This document shows, piece after piece, positions 27,914 to 40,673 of a DNA stretch of 42,692 bases. Made by a program: the position numbers and the translations under genes. Each line of letters starts with the position of its first letter. Position 1 is the stretch's first letter. Below the pieces are notes generated by a model. That model was not told where the DNA came from, ran no database searches, and saw nothing but the letters and a program-made list of their open reading frames with translations. Source of the stretch: Clostridia bacterium (GTDB taxonomy: Bacteria; Bacillota; Clostridia; UBA1212; UBA1255); assembly GCA_017560765.1 (NCBI GenBank), contig JAFZEI010000028.1, positions 130,690 through 173,381 of the forward strand, in the 5' to 3' direction.

Positions 27914-28198
27914 TTATTTATTATTCAGGACAATATCATAGCCGCCGGAACCGTATTTGAGACACTTATTTACGCGGGAAATTGTTGCAGTGGAAGCACC
28001 TGTTTTCTCTACAATCGTATTAAAGGTTTCTCCCTGCTTTAAAAGAACTGCCACCTCAAGCCTTTGCGCCATGGCATTAATCTCATTTATTGTACAAAGA
28101 TCTTCAAAAAACATATCACAATCTTCGATTGTCTTAAGCGCTAAAATAGCTTCGTATAATTTTTCTTTTTCTTGAGTTCTTGATTTATCTTCGTTCAC
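27914..28198 (-). CDS. YerC/TrpR-like transcriptional repressor
   Basis: 94-residue helix-turn-helix protein of the YerC/YecD branch of the TrpR superfamily. Typical blocks: LYEAILALKTIEDCDMFFEDLCTINEINAMAQRLEVAVLL, then the DNA-binding TFNTIVEKTGASTATISRVNKCL. A tryptophan-type ligand is not established for this branch. Start: an in-frame TTG at 28249 lies inside the ATPase gene, but GTG 28198 has AAGGCGGG 8 nt upstream and gives the family's normal length. It is the last gene of the amino acid importer operon, 28 nt after the ATPase, which suggests it may control it. Confidence 0.88.
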   Translation of the reverse strand: MNEDKSRTQEKEKLYEAILALKTIEDCDMFFEDLCTINEINAMAQRLEVAVLLKQGETFNTIVEKTGASTATISRVNKCLKYGSGGYDIVLNNK

Positions 28199-28226
28199 TT
28201 TTAAAACCCGCCTTATCTTTTTAAGT

Positions 28227-29024
28227 TTACTTGTTAAATCCTGCTGCAAGGAACAGCTTTGTCTTTTCTGATTTTGGATTGCCGAAAACTTCTTCAGGTG
28301 TACCTTCTTCTTCTATTATTCCGTCAGCCATATAAATTACATGATCTGCAACACCGCGTGCAAATTCCATTTCATGGGTAACAACCACCATTGTTCTTCC
28401 TTGGTCTTTAAGAGAGCGAATCACTCGCAAAACTTCTCCCGTAAGCTCAGGATCAAGCGCCGATGTCGGTTCATCAAAACACAAAATATCAGGGTTTAAT
28501 GCAAGCGCTCTTGCAATAGCAACACGTTGCTGTTGTCCTCCGGAAAGTCTGCACGGATGCTCGTGGAGTTTTTCTGAAAGTCCTACCATGTCAACAAGAG
28601 TCTCTCCTTGCTCTATAATTTCAGCCTTAGCTGCTTTTATTTCACTTTTAGATGCTTTTTTCTTTTTCAGTTCAGTCGTTCTGTACAAAGTCGGAGCAAG
28701 CGTTACGTTTTTAAGAACATCATGTTGAGGAAACAAATTAAACGATTGAAATACCAGTCCGAAATGAAGACGTCTGTCTCTAAGCTGTGCATCACTGAGT
28801 TTTTTTCCGCTGTCAGCAGAAAAAACTTCTTCGCCATTTACGTATATACTGCCGCCGTTCGGTGTTTCCAAGAAATTAAGGCATCTTAGAAGCGTTGTTT
28901 TGCCGCTTCCCGAAGAACCGATTATTACAAGTACCTCTCCCTGTTTCAAAGAGAACGAAACACCTTTAAGAACTTCTTGCTGTCCGAATGATTTTGTAAT
29001 ATTTTTCACTTCAAGCATATTCAT
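28227..29024 (-). CDS. Polar amino acid ABC importer, ATP-binding protein
   Basis: 265-residue GlnQ/HisP-type ATPase: Walker [11 protein letters not shown]-loop [17 protein letters not shown], signature [15 protein letters not shown], Walker [17 protein letters not shown]-loop [11 protein letters not shown]. An insertion of about 25 residues rich in Lys and Glu ([20 protein letters not shown]) sits after the Q-loop and lengthens the helical subdomain. Start: the frame opens at 29045, but AGAGGT is 8 nt before ATG 29024. It follows the permease, whose stop codon ends 17 nt upstream. Confidence 0.94.
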
Positions 29025-29041
29025 AAAATCTACCTCTCTTC

Positions 29042-29728
29042 TCAAACAGAGTAATAGCTCAATTTTTTCTCTACATAGTAGAAAACAAGTGTTAGTAAAC
29101 CGCTAAACGCCAAATAGAACAAGCACGAATACAACAACGGAGACAACACCGCATATTTATTGACTTTTTCAAATGCCACAGCAATTATTTCTATTACACT
29201 CAATGCTCTTGCCAATGCCGTATCTTTTACGAGCGTAATTATCTCGTTGCTCATCGGAGCTGTAATTTTGCGTACAACTTGCATTAAAACAACATGTCTG
29301 AATATTTGCCATTTTGTCATACCGAGAACCTTGCCGGCTTCATGTTGTCCGACGGAAATATTTTTTATGCCGCCTTCTATTATAACAGAGAAATAACACG
29401 CATAGTTTACTACAAAAGCAAAAAGAACAAACATGAATTGTAAATCCGCCATCGTTTCAAGTCCTAAAAATTCCTTAAAATCTTTATTCGGTATACCAAA
29501 TAACATAGAAGGCACAAAAGTTACAATCAAACATTGAAGTAAAAGCGGGGTTCCTCTTATTACCCATATAAACAGCTTTGTTATCAAACTGATCGGTTTA
29601 ATCTTTGACATAGACATAAATGCCAAAATAAACCCTAACGGTATAGAAAATACTAATGTTAGAGCAAAAAGCTTCAGTGTTACACCAAAGCCGATACATA
29701 AGTCATAAATCATTCCCCAAAAATCCAT
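29042..29728 (-). CDS. Polar amino acid ABC importer, permease
   Basis: 228-residue HisM/GlnP-type permease with about five TM helices. The N-terminal [25 protein letters not shown] and RGTPLLLQC are family hallmarks, and the EAA loop that contacts the ATPase is [22 protein letters not shown]. There is only one permease gene, so it probably forms a homodimer. AAAGGAAAG lies upstream of ATG 29728. A hairpin separates it from the binding-protein gene. Confidence 0.94.
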
Positions 29729-29814: not shown

Positions 29815-30711
29815 TTATTCTTCGGAAGGAACTACAACGCCTTCGCCTGCTGAACCCTTTTCTACAACGATAACTGCATCTTTTGTAGCTTTTACAAACT
29901 CATCGTAGTTAGCGCTCTTATACTTCTCACTGTTAGCTTTTGCTATAACAGCAACTTGCTTGTTAGCAAGATAAGGAACTGAAATTGACATACCTGCTTC
30001 TCTTTCGGGAGTAATTGTCATACCGTTCCATACAAGGTCGATTGTACCATTCTCCAAGAGAGCTTCTTTTGAATTCCAATCAATTATCATAAATTCAACT
30101 GCAATTTCTGCCTCATATTTTGTGTTTAAGTAATTAACAACAGCTTTTGCCAAATCAATGTCAAAGCCCTTAAGTACAGCGTTTTCGCCATCACCTTCAT
30201 TATAAGCAATAGGAGCAAACAAAGTATAACCTACTACTATTTTCTTTGCTGTAACAACTTTGTTCCATGATTCATCACTTGCAGCCTCAAGAGGATTCTT
30301 TGTATCAGCCTTAACCAAAAGCTCTGTTGTAAGACCGTATGTAGCAGCAATTGTTTTGTAATCTGTATCAACAAGACTTATAAGAGCCTCGTTAATTTTT
30401 GACATTAAGGCATCATTGCCTTTCTTTGCTGCAATACCGTATTTTTCTTCAGCCAAAACTACGTTCTCCAACACTTGGTAATCTTTGAATGAATCTGTAT
30501 CATTCATATAGTAACCTGCCATAACGGAGTCGATAACAGCGATGTCAGCATCACCTTTTTTAAGTCCGTTCAATGCATCAAGCTGTGAGGAATATGTAAG
30601 GAGCTCCTTACCGAAATTATTTTTTGATCCTTCGTCTTCTTTTTGACATGCAACAGAAAATACCATACATACGAGTAAAATTGCTGCAATTACAACTGAA
30701 AATTTTTTCAT
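29815..30711 (-). CDS. Amino acid ABC importer substrate-binding lipoprotein, apparently circularly permuted
   Basis: 298 residues. A lipoprotein signal ends in FSVAC with Cys22. The mature part has the two halves of a type 3 solute-binding protein in reversed order. Residues 33-135 (FGKELLTYSSQLDALNGL, ADIAVIDSVMAGYYM, LAEEKYGIAAKKG, YKTIAATYGL) are what normally ends such proteins. Residues 145-298 (KKIVVGYTLFAPIAYNE, GFDIDLAKAV, IDLVWNGMTITPERE, VPYLANKQVAV, VEKGSAGE) are what normally begins them. Joining the C-terminus (SAGEGVVVPSEE) to residue 31 (NNFGKELLTYS) restores an ordinary sequence. It is the first gene of the importer operon, with AAAGGAAAG before ATG 30711. Whether it folds and binds ligand is unknown; an assembly artefact is possible but would not easily place a signal peptide in frame. 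Confidence 0.9.
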   Translation of the reverse strand: MKKFSVVIAAILLVCMVFSVACQKEDEGSKNNFGKELLTYSSQLDALNGLKKGDADIAVIDSVMAGYYMNDTDSFKDYQVLENVVLAEEKYGIAAKKGNDALMSKINEALISLVDTDYKTIAATYGLTTELLVKADTKNPLEAASDESWNKVVTAKKIVVGYTLFAPIAYNEGDGENAVLKGFDIDLAKAVVNYLNTKYEAEIAVEFMIIDWNSKEALLENGTIDLVWNGMTITPEREAGMSISVPYLANKQVAVIAKANSEKYKSANYDEFVKATKDAVIVVEKGSAGEGVVVPSEE

Positions 30712-34922: not shown

Positions 34923-37900
34923 ATGCGTAATATAATTTCATTGGATATTTCTGTTGCTAACGTGGTAAATTATGCCCTGCAACAAAACAAAATCCCATTT
35001 ATTCAATCATTTAAAATTCAAAACACTACTGATGTAACGTATGAAAATGCAGAAATAAAAATCACTTCTTCTCCGGAAATCATACTACCCTTCACAAAGC
35101 ATATAGATTATATCCCGGCTAACACATCTCTTGCAGTTAAGGATATTTCTCCTCTGCTTAATACGGAATACCTCAGCAGCCTTACAGAGCGTGTTGTCGG
35201 TGTACTTAATTTAAGCATTACTGCAGACAATGCAGAAATATATTCAGAGCAACGGCCTCTTACAGCCCTAGCATTTGACCAATGGCAAGGTTCGGAATAC
35301 TTTCCGGAGCTTATTGCAGCGTATATAACTCCGAATCATCCCGAAATCACGAAAATAAAAGCCCGTGCATCACAACTGTTGGAAAAGTGGACGGGTTCAC
35401 CGTCTTTTACGTCTTATCAAACACAAGACCCGAACAGAGTGCTAACTCAAGCAGCAGCTTTTTACGGCGCAGTACAAGAGCGGAATTTAGTGTATTCCGT
35501 ATCTCCTGCAGGACTACACGAGGCAGGGCAACGCGTAAGGCTTTGCGAGGATGTTATGCAACAAAAAATGTGCAACTGCCTTGAAGCAACGCTCTTATTT
35601 GCGGCTTGCTTAGAATCAGCAGGACTTAATCCTCTGCTCATAATGGAAAAAGGTCATGTTTTCCCGGGAGTTTGGTTAGAAGACAGGACTTTTCCCGAAG
35701 CTGTTCAATATGATATTTCGGCTATTACAAAGAGATTGGCAAAAGGTATAAATGAAATAGCCGTGTTCGAGAGCACGTTAGCTCTTGCCGGCATAAACAC
35801 TACCGATTTTGACATAGCAAAAGAGCAAGCAGAGAAAAGACTTATTTCGTCTGCAGAATTCGAATACGCAGTAGATGTAAAAAAAGCCCGTCTTTGCGGA
35901 ATATCGCCTCTGCCTCAGCGTATTGCAACCGACACCGGTTGGTATATTGAAAGACCGAATCTTTGTGAATCAGAAATAACAGTTGCTCCCGAAGAAATTA
36001 AAAAACAAAAAATAACGCAAGAAGACACAGCTCAAGCGAAATCGTCAACTTCTCCGAAAAAATTACAATGGGAACGCAAGTTGCTTGATTTGGGCTTAAG
36101 AAATGCACTTATTAATATGCGTCTTTCCAAAACTACCGTACCCATACTTACATCATCACTGGACGAATTGGAAAATGCTCTTTTTGACGGCGGCGATTTT
36201 TCTATACAGCCCAGACCTGAAAACTGGCACATACCGCAAAGCGATATAAGTTTTGAAAATATTCACGACTTAGGTAATTCCGGCGAATTGATAAAAACAG
36301 AATTTAAAAGCAAGCGTCTGCGTTCTTCTCTTAGCGAAACGGAGCTTACAAAAGCAATAAAAGAATTGTACAGAGCGTCACGCACTGCTTTAGAAGAAAA
36401 TGGTGCCAACACACTTTATCTTGTTTTAGGTATTTTGCGTTGGTTTGAAACATCGAAAAGCACAAAAGCAAGATACGCTCCGTTAATGATGATTCCTATA
36501 GAAATGCTTCGCAAGGGTGCCGGGCAGGGGTACATTATACGCCTAAGAGATGATGAACCTCATGTAAACATTACAATGTTAGAGAAATTAAAGCAAGATT
36601 TTGGCATAGACGTAAATGGTCTTGACCCTCTTCCGATGGACGAACACGGAATAGATGTCAGAAAAGTTCTCACAATATTGCGAAATGCCGTGATGGAGCA
36701 ATCCGGTTGGGATGTATTAGAATCGGCATATTTGGGTATATATTCTTTTTCTCAATTCGTAATGTGGAACGATATAAAAAATCGTTCTGATGATTTAGAA
36801 AAAAACAAAATCGTAAAAAGTCTTATAGATGGTAAACTTTCTTGGTCTGCAACCGATATGGAAATAGGCGAGCGTGTTTCAGAAAGCAATGTTTTCCTAC
36901 CATTACCGGCTGATGCTTCGCAACTTTTTGCTATAGAAGCTGCTGTGAGTGGAGAAAGCTTCGTTCTCCACGGACCTCCCGGAACAGGTAAATCACAGAC
37001 GATTACTGCATTAATTGCCAATGCACTTGCACAGGGAAAAACTGTTCTTTTTGTAGCCGAAAAAATGGCTGCTCTGCAGGTTGTGCGCAAAAGGCTTTCC
37101 GCAATAGGAATAGGCCCTTTTTGCTTGGAACTCCATTCCAACAAATCTAAAAAGAAGGATGTTTTAGAGCAATTAAGAATCGTTTCTGAAATCACAAAGC
37201 ATGTAACATCTGAGGATTTTCAGGCAAAAGCAGAAAAAATTGCGGATACTCGTAATGAGTTGGATGAATATTCCTCATACTTACACAAAAAACACAAGTG
37301 CGGCAAAACGCTTTATGAACTGATAAATGAGTACGAAGCCGTGAAAAGCGCGCCTGATTCCGTCAAATTTTCCTCAGACTTTATTTTGTCTGTTACAGCG
37401 GAAGATACAGACACCCACAGCACTGTTTTAGAAAGACTTGTGGCTGCGGCAAAGGTGGTAGGACACCCTTGTGAAAATCCTCTTAAAGATATTGGACTTA
37501 CACAATATTCGCGCCAGCTTAAAGCAACCTTTACAGAGAAGATAAGTGCTTACAAAAAGGCGCTTATGGATTTTCATGCTTGCTGTGAGGATTTATGCAA
37601 GGTGACAAACATTCTTATACCTGAGAAGTATTCCGAAACGGAATGCGTGGTCAAAACTGTACAGGAGCTTACAAAATGGTTTGATTTGCCGCGCAGTTGG
37701 GCTGTTTCGGCTAATATAAAGAGACTCTTATGTGATACGAGAGAAACTGCCAAGCTGTACATACAAGTAAATGATATGAAACAACAGCTTTTGGCTAACT
37801 GGACTGAGGATGTTTTCTTGCAAGATGGCAAGGCTCTTTTGTGTGAATTTAACGAAGCAAATGCGGAATGGCTTATACCTAAATTCATGGGCTTGAGAAA

Positions 37901-40673
37901 GTTGTCAAAGAAAGTTTCTGCTTATATGAAAAAACCTATTGCAAAGGAGCTTTTGGGTGCTCAATTTACAATTCTGGCAAATTATCAGGCACAGAAAAAA
38001 GAGGCAGATACTCTTTTTGCACAATGCGGTATGCAACTTGATGATTTATATCAAGGGGCAAATACTGATTGGAAGAACATATTGGCTAAAATTGATGTTG
38101 CAGAGGCAAGCGCTGCTACTTTGGAAGAGCTGCATCATTCCGACAATGTTCGTATAGAATATGCAGCCGTAAAACAGCTCCAAAGTGTGTTGGAAGCCGC
38201 CAAGCTTTCCGTAGACGAATTTTGCTGTAAAAAGGAAGATTTGTACGAAACACTTTGCATACAGCAAGCGGAAAGCGACTGCTGGTACAGCGACCAAATA
38301 AAAATGTGTGATACGGTATTATTAAATGCCGATGCTTTAAAAGACCACATTACATGGAATGCAATGGCAACCGATGTAAAAAGAGAAGGCTTAGATAGTG
38401 TTATTGACGCATATTGTTCAGGTTTGGAGCACGAAAATGTTATACCGGCATATAAAAAGGCTCTTATCAGTGGCCTTATAAATGAAATCATTGATTCCGA
38501 GCCGGCCCTTACCGCCTTTAGCGGAAGTGTGTTCAATGAAAAAATCGAGCAATTTAAGAGGATGGATGCGGAGCTTACAGCTCTTACAAAAAAAGAAATT
38601 TTTTGTCGTTTGGCTGCTAAGATTCCTAATTTTGCAAAAGAGGCTTCTCAAAGCTCAGAACTGGGAATATTGCAAAAAGCTATACGAAGCGGCGGCAGAG
38701 GTATCAGCATCAGAAAGCTTTTCTCGCAAATACCTAATTTATTACCTTTGCTCTGTCCTTGTATGCTTATGAGTCCTATTTCTGCAGCTCAATATCTTGA
38801 CCCGAAGAGAGAGCCTTTTGATATTGTTGTATTTGACGAGGCTTCACAGCTTCCTACGTGCAAGGCTGTAGGTGTTCTTGCCAGAGGCAGGGATGCTGTT
38901 ATTGTTGGCGACCCCAAACAAATGCCTCCTACTTCTTTCTTTGCTGCAAATACAGTAGATGAGGAGGATTTTGAAGCAGAAGATTTAGAGAGTATTCTTG
39001 ATGATTGTCTTGCTCTTAGTATGCCTCAGACTCATTTGCTTTGGCATTACAGGAGTAGGCATGAAAGCCTTATTGCCTTTAGCAACAGTCAATTCTATGA
39101 TAATAAATTATACACCTTCCCTTCTATTAATGACAGGGAGTCCAAAGTTCGCCTTGTTCCCGTTAATGGTATTTTTGATCGTGGCAAGACACGTCAGAAT
39201 TTTGCGGAAGCAGAAGCAATTATTGAGGATTTAAAAAAGCGTTGTCACGATCCTGAGCGTTCTAAAATGAGTGTTGGTGTTGTTACTTTTAATATTTCTC
39301 AACAAAACCTTATTGATGACCTTCTTACAGAGGCTTGCAGGAACGACCGAGATTTAGAAAAATGGGTTTATGAGTCAGAAGAGCCTTTATTTATTAAAAA
39401 CCTTGAAAATGTGCAAGGTGACGAGAGAGATGTTATATTGTTTTCCGTAGGCTACGGACCGGATAAAGACGGTAAAGTCTATATGAATTTCGGTCCTCTT
39501 AACAGAGATGGCGGTTGGAGAAGGCTTAATGTGGCAATTTCAAGAGCGCGCTACGAAATGACTGTTTATTCTGCTCTTTTGCCGGAACATATTGATCTTT
39601 CACGTTCAAACGCACAAGGTGTTGCTGCTCTTAAGGAGTTTCTTGAGTATGCTGCAGGTAAGGCGTTATCTGTAAATAACTTTTCTTTATGTGATAAAAA
39701 TGTTCCTAACAAGGGTATTGCAGATTCAATCTGCGAAGTGCTTCATCAACATGGCTACAAAACGGAGAAATTCGTAGGAAAGTCTGAGTACAGAATTGAC
39801 ATTGGTGTAATTGACAACGACAATCCCGAAAAATATCTTTTGGGCATTTTACTTGATGGCAAGGGCTATAGTACCGCCAAAACAACTCGAGATCGTGAGA
39901 TTGCTCAAATCAGTGTTCTTAATGGATTAGGCTGGAATATTCTTCGCGTTTGGTCTGTAGATTGGTGGGAAAACCCCAAAAAAGAAACAGAAAGGCTTAT
40001 AAACGCTGTAGATGCCATAAAGAATGGTTCTTTTGAGACAGATTGCAATGCAGATGCTTTGTTTAATGAGGATGATATTACGTTAAAGAAGCTTGGTACA
40101 TCAAAGACAGCAAAAATCCCACAGTATGAGGCTACTGTTTTAAAGGAAAAAATTATCACTCCGGAGGAGTTTATGCTCCCTAAATACGATAAAGAAATAA
40201 AAAGTAAAATTTCTGCAGTTTTAAAGAAAGAAGCCCCCATTTGCGAGGATTTGCTTATCAGGCGCGTTGTGCAAAGCTTCGGAATTACAAGAGCCGGCAC
40301 CAAAATGCACGGTAAAATCGTTAATTTAATAAATGAACTTGATGTAAGGTTCACCTTATATGATTTTGAGAAAATTTATTGGCATGAGAGCACAGAGCCT
40401 GAGAGCTACTGCATTTTCCGTACAAGCGGCACTGAGGAGAACCGTCGCGATGCGGAGTTTGTGCCTGTGCAAGAGGCTGCAAATGCTGTGTGCCGCGTGC
40501 TTTCCGAGCAAGTTAGTCTTGCCCAAGAGGATTTAATTCGCGAATCTGCCAAAATAATGGGATATACAAGATCCGGCTCGGTACTTACTGCTCTTTTTGC
40601 CAATGCAATAGAGTTTGCGTACCAAGCCGGTAAAATAACTAAAGGTGCCAATGAGCACTGGATTTTAAATTAA
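34923..40673 (+). CDS. DUF4011-SF1 helicase-nuclease-DUF3320 protein (Hhe-like candidate defence gene)
   Basis: 1916 residues, cytoplasmic. In order: a beta-rich N-domain (about 1-125); a transglutaminase-like domain (about 140-290) with candidate triad Cys219 (CLEATLLF), His245 (GHVFPGVWL) and Asp264; DUF4011 (about 381-640, WERKLLDLGLRNALINM); SF1 helicase with Walker A GPPGTGKS (684-691), a helical insertion of about 600 residues, Walker B FDEASQLP (Asp1305, Glu1306), GDPKQMPP and motif VI NVAISRARYE (from 1536); a PD-(D/E)xK-like nuclease with Asp1626 (RIDIGV) and Asp1645-Gly-Lys1647 (LLDGKGY); and two DUF3320-type helical repeats (EDLLIRRVVQSFGITRAG, QEDLIRESAKIMGYTRSG). The DUF4011-helicase-Vsr layout is that of Hhe, a reported single-gene phage-defence system; similar proteins also occur outside proven defence. 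GGGAGGG lies 10 nt before ATG 34923. Confidence 0.9.
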   Translation: MRNIISLDISVANVVNYALQQNKIPFIQSFKIQNTTDVTYENAEIKITSSPEIILPFTKHIDYIPANTSLAVKDISPLLNTEYLSSLTERVVGVLNLSITADNAEIYSEQRPLTALAFDQWQGSEYFPELIAAYITPNHPEITKIKARASQLLEKWTGSPSFTSYQTQDPNRVLTQAAAFYGAVQERNLVYSVSPAGLHEAGQRVRLCEDVMQQKMCNCLEATLLFAACLESAGLNPLLIMEKGHVFPGVWLEDRTFPEAVQYDISAITKRLAKGINEIAVFESTLALAGINTTDFDIAKEQAEKRLISSAEFEYAVDVKKARLCGISPLPQRIATDTGWYIERPNLCESEITVAPEEIKKQKITQEDTAQAKSSTSPKKLQWERKLLDLGLRNALINMRLSKTTVPILTSSLDELENALFDGGDFSIQPRPENWHIPQSDISFENIHDLGNSGELIKTEFKSKRLRSSLSETELTKAIKELYRASRTALEENGANTLYLVLGILRWFETSKSTKARYAPLMMIPIEMLRKGAGQGYIIRLRDDEPHVNITMLEKLKQDFGIDVNGLDPLPMDEHGIDVRKVLTILRNAVMEQSGWDVLESAYLGIYSFSQFVMWNDIKNRSDDLEKNKIVKSLIDGKLSWSATDMEIGERVSESNVFLPLPADASQLFAIEAAVSGESFVLHGPPGTGKSQTITALIANALAQGKTVLFVAEKMAALQVVRKRLSAIGIGPFCLELHSNKSKKKDVLEQLRIVSEITKHVTSEDFQAKAEKIADTRNELDEYSSYLHKKHKCGKTLYELINEYEAVKSAPDSVKFSSDFILSVTAEDTDTHSTVLERLVAAAKVVGHPCENPLKDIGLTQYSRQLKATFTEKISAYKKALMDFHACCEDLCKVTNILIPEKYSETECVVKTVQELTKWFDLPRSWAVSANIKRLLCDTRETAKLYIQVNDMKQQLLANWTEDVFLQDGKALLCEFNEANAEWLIPKFMGLRKLSKKVSAYMKKPIAKELLGAQFTILANYQAQKKEADTLFAQCGMQLDDLYQGANTDWKNILAKIDVAEASAATLEELHHSDNVRIEYAAVKQLQSVLEAAKLSVDEFCCKKEDLYETLCIQQAESDCWYSDQIKMCDTVLLNADALKDHITWNAMATDVKREGLDSVIDAYCSGLEHENVIPAYKKALISGLINEIIDSEPALTAFSGSVFNEKIEQFKRMDAELTALTKKEIFCRLAAKIPNFAKEASQSSELGILQKAIRSGGRGISIRKLFSQIPNLLPLLCPCMLMSPISAAQYLDPKREPFDIVVFDEASQLPTCKAVGVLARGRDAVIVGDPKQMPPTSFFAANTVDEEDFEAEDLESILDDCLALSMPQTHLLWHYRSRHESLIAFSNSQFYDNKLYTFPSINDRESKVRLVPVNGIFDRGKTRQNFAEAEAIIEDLKKRCHDPERSKMSVGVVTFNISQQNLIDDLLTEACRNDRDLEKWVYESEEPLFIKNLENVQGDERDVILFSVGYGPDKDGKVYMNFGPLNRDGGWRRLNVAISRARYEMTVYSALLPEHIDLSRSNAQGVAALKEFLEYAAGKALSVNNFSLCDKNVPNKGIADSICEVLHQHGYKTEKFVGKSEYRIDIGVIDNDNPEKYLLGILLDGKGYSTAKTTRDREIAQISVLNGLGWNILRVWSVDWWENPKKETERLINAVDAIKNGSFETDCNADALFNEDDITLKKLGTSKTAKIPQYEATVLKEKIITPEEFMLPKYDKEIKSKISAVLKKEAPICEDLLIRRVVQSFGITRAGTKMHGKIVNLINELDVRFTLYDFEKIYWHESTEPESYCIFRTSGTEENRRDAEFVPVQEAANAVCRVLSEQVSLAQEDLIRESAKIMGYTRSGSVLTALFANAIEFAYQAGKITKGANEHWILN

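Follow-up and report, generated by a model that had tools for sequence, protein, structure and literature searches.

The question raised by this locus is whether a lipoprotein gene at 29815-30711 of the window (the whole stretch of 42,692 nucleotides analysed here) encodes a solute-binding protein (SBP) of the SBP_bac_3 family with its two parts in exchanged positions and, if it does, how often such a change of order has occurred and what it might mean. A preliminary description made from the sequence had proposed such an exchange; its coordinates are right and the peptides that it quoted are all present, and the coding strand, which it did not give, is the minus strand, the plus strand of 29815-30711 being packed with stops. 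The features of the gene and its operon are as follows, with T1 denoting the order class to which the window protein belongs.

29815..30711, minus strand: T1 circularly permuted SBP_bac_3 lipoprotein gene, 298 aa plus stop (Pfam, phmmer, 9 further T1 loci)
30646..30711, minus strand: signal peptide and lipobox, residues 1-22; Cys22 invariant in 10/10 T1 proteins
30607..30645, minus strand: tether and new N-terminus, residues 23-35; in the AlphaFold2 model, low confidence to residue 29 and first strand at 36
30334..30606, minus strand: canonical C-terminal part put first, residues 36-126 (remainder of lobe 2, crossover strand and lobe 1 C-terminal part, with the ligand-type Asp61 invariant; phmmer, T1 alignment, AlphaFold2 model)
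30247..30333, minus strand: fused linker between the former C-terminus and the former N-terminus, residues 127-155 (phmmer, T1 alignment, AlphaFold2 model)
29818..30246, minus strand: canonical N-terminal part put last, residues 156-298 (lobe 1 with TITPERE and Arg238, crossover and first part of lobe 2, ending just after GSAGE; Pfam SBP_bac_3 at 161-279, phmmer, fold search)
29042..29728, minus strand: ABC importer permease (BPD_transp_1), polar amino acid type
28227..29045, minus strand: ABC importer ATPase (ABC_tran), HisP/GlnQ/TcyN-like
27914..28249, minus strand: TrpR-like repressor, which also adjoins the operon in genomes G001, G007, G008 and G075

The window protein and its operon

The window protein matches the Pfam SBP_bac_3 model (PF00497) in two stretches, with 82.7 bits against a gathering score of 26.4, and phmmer searches, profiles and a rotation scan all agree that its halves are swapped. 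In comparison with the PDB, residues 145-260 align with 10-117 of 3hv1_A, and residues 36-114 with 157-234 of that chain; 4ohn, AncQR and CDT-Anc1 give the same two-piece swapped match, and the T1 profile and NCBIfam models also return the swapped order. When rotations of the mature window sequence were scored against the canonical protein of G001, a genome of the window's genus, the unrotated sequence scored 249 and the best rotation 344, with a median of 263.5 across all rotations. Both parts are homologous to one domain, which is nearly complete, present in a single copy and swapped in its parts, as in a natural circular permutant; the canonical order lobe 1N - lobe 2 - lobe 1C is not found. 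Because its halves are swapped, we class the protein as a permuted SBP_bac_3 variant rather than an ordinary member of the family. The retention of the signal peptide, the near-completeness of the permutation and the position of the new termini in lobe 2, all put forward in the preliminary description, are likewise supported.

The gene heads an SBP-permease-ATPase operon and thus has its cognate transporter genes beside it, as for an SBP-dependent ABC importer, and the gene for the TrpR-like regulator comes next in several genomes. The signal peptide, with a lipobox cysteine that is the same in ten sequences, predicts a lipoprotein. The candidate amino acid site is taken to be the Arg of TxxER in lobe 1 together with an Asp in lobe 2; Asp61 is invariant among the T1 rows, and Arg238 is present in most of them and absent from L020. 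The TrpR-like repressor lies beside both a permuted operon (G075) and ordinary ones (G001, G007 and G008), which is a weak hint of an aromatic ligand. Elsewhere in the window, a protein of 1916 aa with DUF4011, helicase, REase_MTES_1575 and DUF3320 regions is encoded at 34923-40673 on the plus strand; it has strong matches to Hhe and to PDC-S37 (E 0), one of the candidate defence models of PADLOC.

We put at roughly 0.88 the probability that the window gene encodes a working, permuted Venus-flytrap SBP_bac_3 protein, lipid-anchored outside the cell and supplying a polar amino acid to the importer whose permease and ATPase genes follow its own.

An SBP-like fold is predicted for two of the permuted types, T1 and the T2 class defined below. 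With ten T1 sequences the best AlphaFold2 model has a pLDDT of 79.8 and a pTM of 0.74, the next of the five models reaching only 60.9; with nine T2 sequences the pLDDT is 85.5, and five models agree at 84-86. Ordinary family 3 SBPs mostly align with the T1 model over ~90-140 residues, corresponding to one half, and sequential Foldseek searches give either half matches or long alignments with an rmsd of ~7-15, which are uninformative for a permutant. Among structures, the T1 model is matched best by PfVFT1 of Plasmodium (5jkq), which covers the fused order from residue 98 to 297 and so spans the linker, with 187 residues aligned at Z 13.0 and an rmsd of 3.9, although it is eukaryotic and only 11% identical. 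As a lead, this suggests that PfVFT1 may be permuted too; a literature search found no paper on PfVFT1 topology. Many SBPs match the T2 model with a sequential Z close to 10, which may reflect the pseudo-symmetry of the lobes.

Permuted relatives and their breakpoints

The preliminary description would have lost its footing had all close homologues shown the ordinary order; instead, the nearest homologues have the same order as the window protein, and ordinary-order relatives exist too. The T1 order is found at nine other loci in other species, genera and families, with 51-88% identity to the window protein: SVJD01000031 (88%), JAGAQK010000010 (87%, truncated by a contig end), JAFTXB010000176 and JAFTMU010000063 (68-69%), G005 and G006 (genus g2), G022 and G023 (family f5), and G075 (family f14, 51%). 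Between close T1 pairs dN/dS is ~0.06-0.12, indicating strong purifying selection.

These relatives bear on two trivial accounts of the window order. The source genome is a 132-contig assembly, in which a mis-join or a chimeric contig might be suspected, but identical junctions are present in many separate assemblies, the contigs involved are of considerable length (173 kb for the one that holds the window, up to 208 kb for the T3 class described below), and the reading frames are unbroken and under purifying selection; since the order recurs in separate assemblies, misassembly and chance are ruled out in practice, and we regard the probability of an artefact as negligible. Permutation by way of duplication would require the outer halves to be lost, an outcome that decay would produce as well, so that the gene might be thought a non-functional leftover of a tandem duplication. 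The low dN/dS, the invariant Asp61 and lipobox Cys, the intact operon and the conservation across several genera and families make this very improbable, and argue for a working permuted SBP.

To class the relatives, each was aligned to two head-to-tail copies of an ordinary reference (233 residues), and three breakpoint classes are observed. In T1, the class of the window protein, the cut lies between reference ~126 and ~136, inside lobe 2. In T2 (G116, G279, G154, G457, G240 and G383) it lies between ~91 and ~104, at the start of lobe 2, and in T3 (G156, G046 twice, G081, G202, G134, G242, G362 and G107) it is at ~167/168, past the lobe-2 helix with the ligand Asp. Most complete sequences lack 0 to 15 residues of the ordinary chain at the break. 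The T2 and T3 proteins are 59-74% identical to their nearest canonical relative. For T1 proteins the corresponding identity is only 41-46%, and the founding event of T1 is therefore considered to lie further back, and to be less well resolved, than the T2 and T3 events. An ordinary-order query against 274 genomes returned mostly ordinary members, with T2 or T3 in ~10 genomes and no obvious new permuted class among the matches listed.

As a control, a different SBP of the same genome, belonging to subfamily B, was used as the query against 60 Clostridia genomes. Subfamily B has permuted members too, with T2-like cuts in G046, G058 and G068 and a T3-like cut in G074, and the loci are:

L119:5740-6537, L120:6031-6861, L121:5607-6419 and L128:2991-3896: permuted subfamily B SBPs (T2-like, T3-like), with permease and ATPase downstream of each

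Every permuted gene with enough context stands first in an SBP-permease-ATPase operon, with the exception of two orphan T3 copies in G046 (L099:102-1109, in G046:C12, and L098:6357-7184), neither of which has an adjoining permease. In one of these orphans an apparent transmembrane anchor replaces the lipobox, and this protein may be a receptor. A separate arrangement is seen in G006 and G005 (L107:8474-11494 and L127:729-3757), where the permuted operon is directly followed, on its downstream side, by another amino acid importer, the SBP of which has the ordinary order.

Independent events and probable exchange of operons

In a tree of the rotated SBPs (58 rows), T1 forms one clade (100/99), T2 is found in three places and T3 in two, for a total of 6 changes, and AU tests reject a single origin for T2 (p 1e-45) and for T3 (p 3e-8). 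The tree of the permease, the gene for which is not permuted, is broadly congruent: T1 is again one clade, and T2 and T3 each fall in at least two distant clades, with ordinary relatives adjoining. On the clades of the permease tree, and with the placement of G240 uncertain, a conservative count points to at least five independent changes of order; for both subfamilies together, nine changes are needed.

Counts of changes alone give no direction, and do not separate gain from loss. A single ancient permutation, with the ordinary order regained later, or a spread of the order by recombination between paralogues, could be entertained on that account, and also because the T1 branch is long and leaves subfamily A at its base, and because transporter operons appear to be swapped at fixed loci. 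Such histories have to contend with three distinct breakpoints and with the rejection of one clade both for T2 and for T3, and we consider them unlikely. Repeated gain of the permuted orders is the simpler reading, since the canonical order is that of the solved SBP_bac_3 relatives examined and of most members of both subfamilies.

Gene neighbourhoods point to a probable exchange of operons. G001 has an ordinary-order SBP operon between the same neighbours as the window, and the flanking proteins of the two are similar (MutS 82%, YlbF 80%, DUF6062 79%; range 75-82% with MiaB; OGG 57%), whereas the permeases are only 49% identical; against G002, the window permease is 95% identical and OGG 74%. 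With the flanks conserved and the permease at 49%, permutation in place at the window locus was rejected as the simplest reading, and the operon has probably been exchanged at a fixed position. A second case involves one genus with three SBP orders, G242 (T3), G279 (T2) and G311 (ordinary), at loci L103, L092 and L110; in all three uppP is upstream (one gene farther in G279) and a GIY-YIG gene is downstream. The SBPs and permeases fall in different clades, however, so that this also looks like operon exchange.

Proposed origin, tether position and known systems

A plausible route to each permutation would begin with a protein in which the mature domain had been duplicated in tandem after a single signal peptide (SP-SBD-SBD); both outer ends would then be trimmed to leave a permuted single domain. 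This domain would still close on its ligand; the lasting difference would be that the lipid tether enters lobe 2 rather than lobe 1, and that lobe 1 is a continuous chain. Duplication with loss of the outer halves had been suggested in the preliminary description, and the linker is consistent with it. The fused linker of the window protein, GLTTELLVKADTKNPLEAASDESWNKVVTAKK, has an end that resembles what ordinary relatives carry between lipobox and first strand (in G007, SSKEDWAYIDDKGELTVG), a resemblance predicted by trimming, and no second signal peptide is present in it, which would fit a tandem SP-SBD-SBD trimmed at both ends. No tandem intermediate was found in the subfamily of the window SBP, and the altered hinge motion or ligand choice that the preliminary description also raised is a conjecture. 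A presumed intermediate shape is provided by the two-domain tandem SBD1-SBD2 of GlnP (6h30), although there both domains are complete and part of a permease fusion; the T2 profile runs unbroken across the SBD1-SBD2 junction (6h30 99-326), as expected of a trimmed tandem.

Lobe 2 is placed between the two crossover strands, from about reference ~92 to ~187, using the long strands 241-257 and 87-96 of the T1 model and the usual architecture of this fold. All three cut sites fall within lobe 2, so in each class the lipid tether is attached to lobe 2 and no longer to lobe 1, and lobe 1 becomes a single continuous chain in the permuted forms. As lobe 2 makes up only ~40% of the chain, and lobe 1 ~60%, finding every inferred event in lobe 2 and none that breaks lobe 1 would be unlikely if cuts were uniform. 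A tentative explanation, to which we assign clearly less than an even chance, is that in gut Clostridia selection on amino-acid SBPs has recurrently favoured a lipid tether on lobe 2 over one on lobe 1, a move made through repeated permutation at three preferred lobe-2 sites; the native pairs of 59-74% identity would then be a natural experiment on the way in which an ABC importer is shaped by tethering and chain order. As small lobe-1 shifts are hard to detect, this is offered as a hypothesis and not a result. We give about even odds to the alternative that the permutations are selectively neutral and the loops of lobe 2 simply accept new ends, which concerns the reason for the permutations and not the identity of the proteins. 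The few sites used repeatedly, at the edges of loops or helices, speak for neutrality, as does the observation that circular permutants usually retain function (PMC2395249). That none of the inferred events breaks lobe 1 suggests, without proving, selection on the position of the tether.

Canonical SBP_bac_3 proteins (3hv1, 4ohn, TmArgBP, GlnH) resemble the window protein in family, operon partners and the putative ligand-type Arg and Asp, but differ in the order of the halves and the site of the N-terminal tether, and profile annotation splits or truncates the SBP of such importers. Natural permutation of SBPs is already known. TpMglB-2 of Treponema ('Type Ic') is permuted and lipid-anchored, binds glucose and changes shape, and its authors propose that the permutation is an adaptation to tethering (PMC4990184). 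The window protein is likewise a permuted SBP with a predicted lipid anchor, but TpMglB-2 has a Type I sugar-binding fold and one described permuted class, whereas the matches of the window protein are to family 3 amino acid SBPs. The OpuAC and ProX glycine betaine SBPs are permuted among themselves and relative to molybdate binding proteins (CPSARST, PMC2395249); this too is a natural permutation of two-lobed binding proteins, but the ligand family differs, and the glycine betaine SBP profile does not match the window protein, for which Pfam gives only SBP_bac_3 and, weakly, Lig_chan-Glu_bd.

In open-access text we found no report that family 3 amino acid SBPs can be permuted, and none in which a single family has undergone permutation repeatedly in recent times; recurrence within one amino-acid SBP family appears to be new. 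Natural permutations are usually spotted between distant proteins, long after the event. The CPSARST proteins are <24% identical (PMC2395249), whereas canonical and permuted relatives here are up to 74% identical. With such pairs in equivalent operons, and with many events, the origin of permutations, the break sites that are allowed and the effects on the hinge become testable with native pairs.
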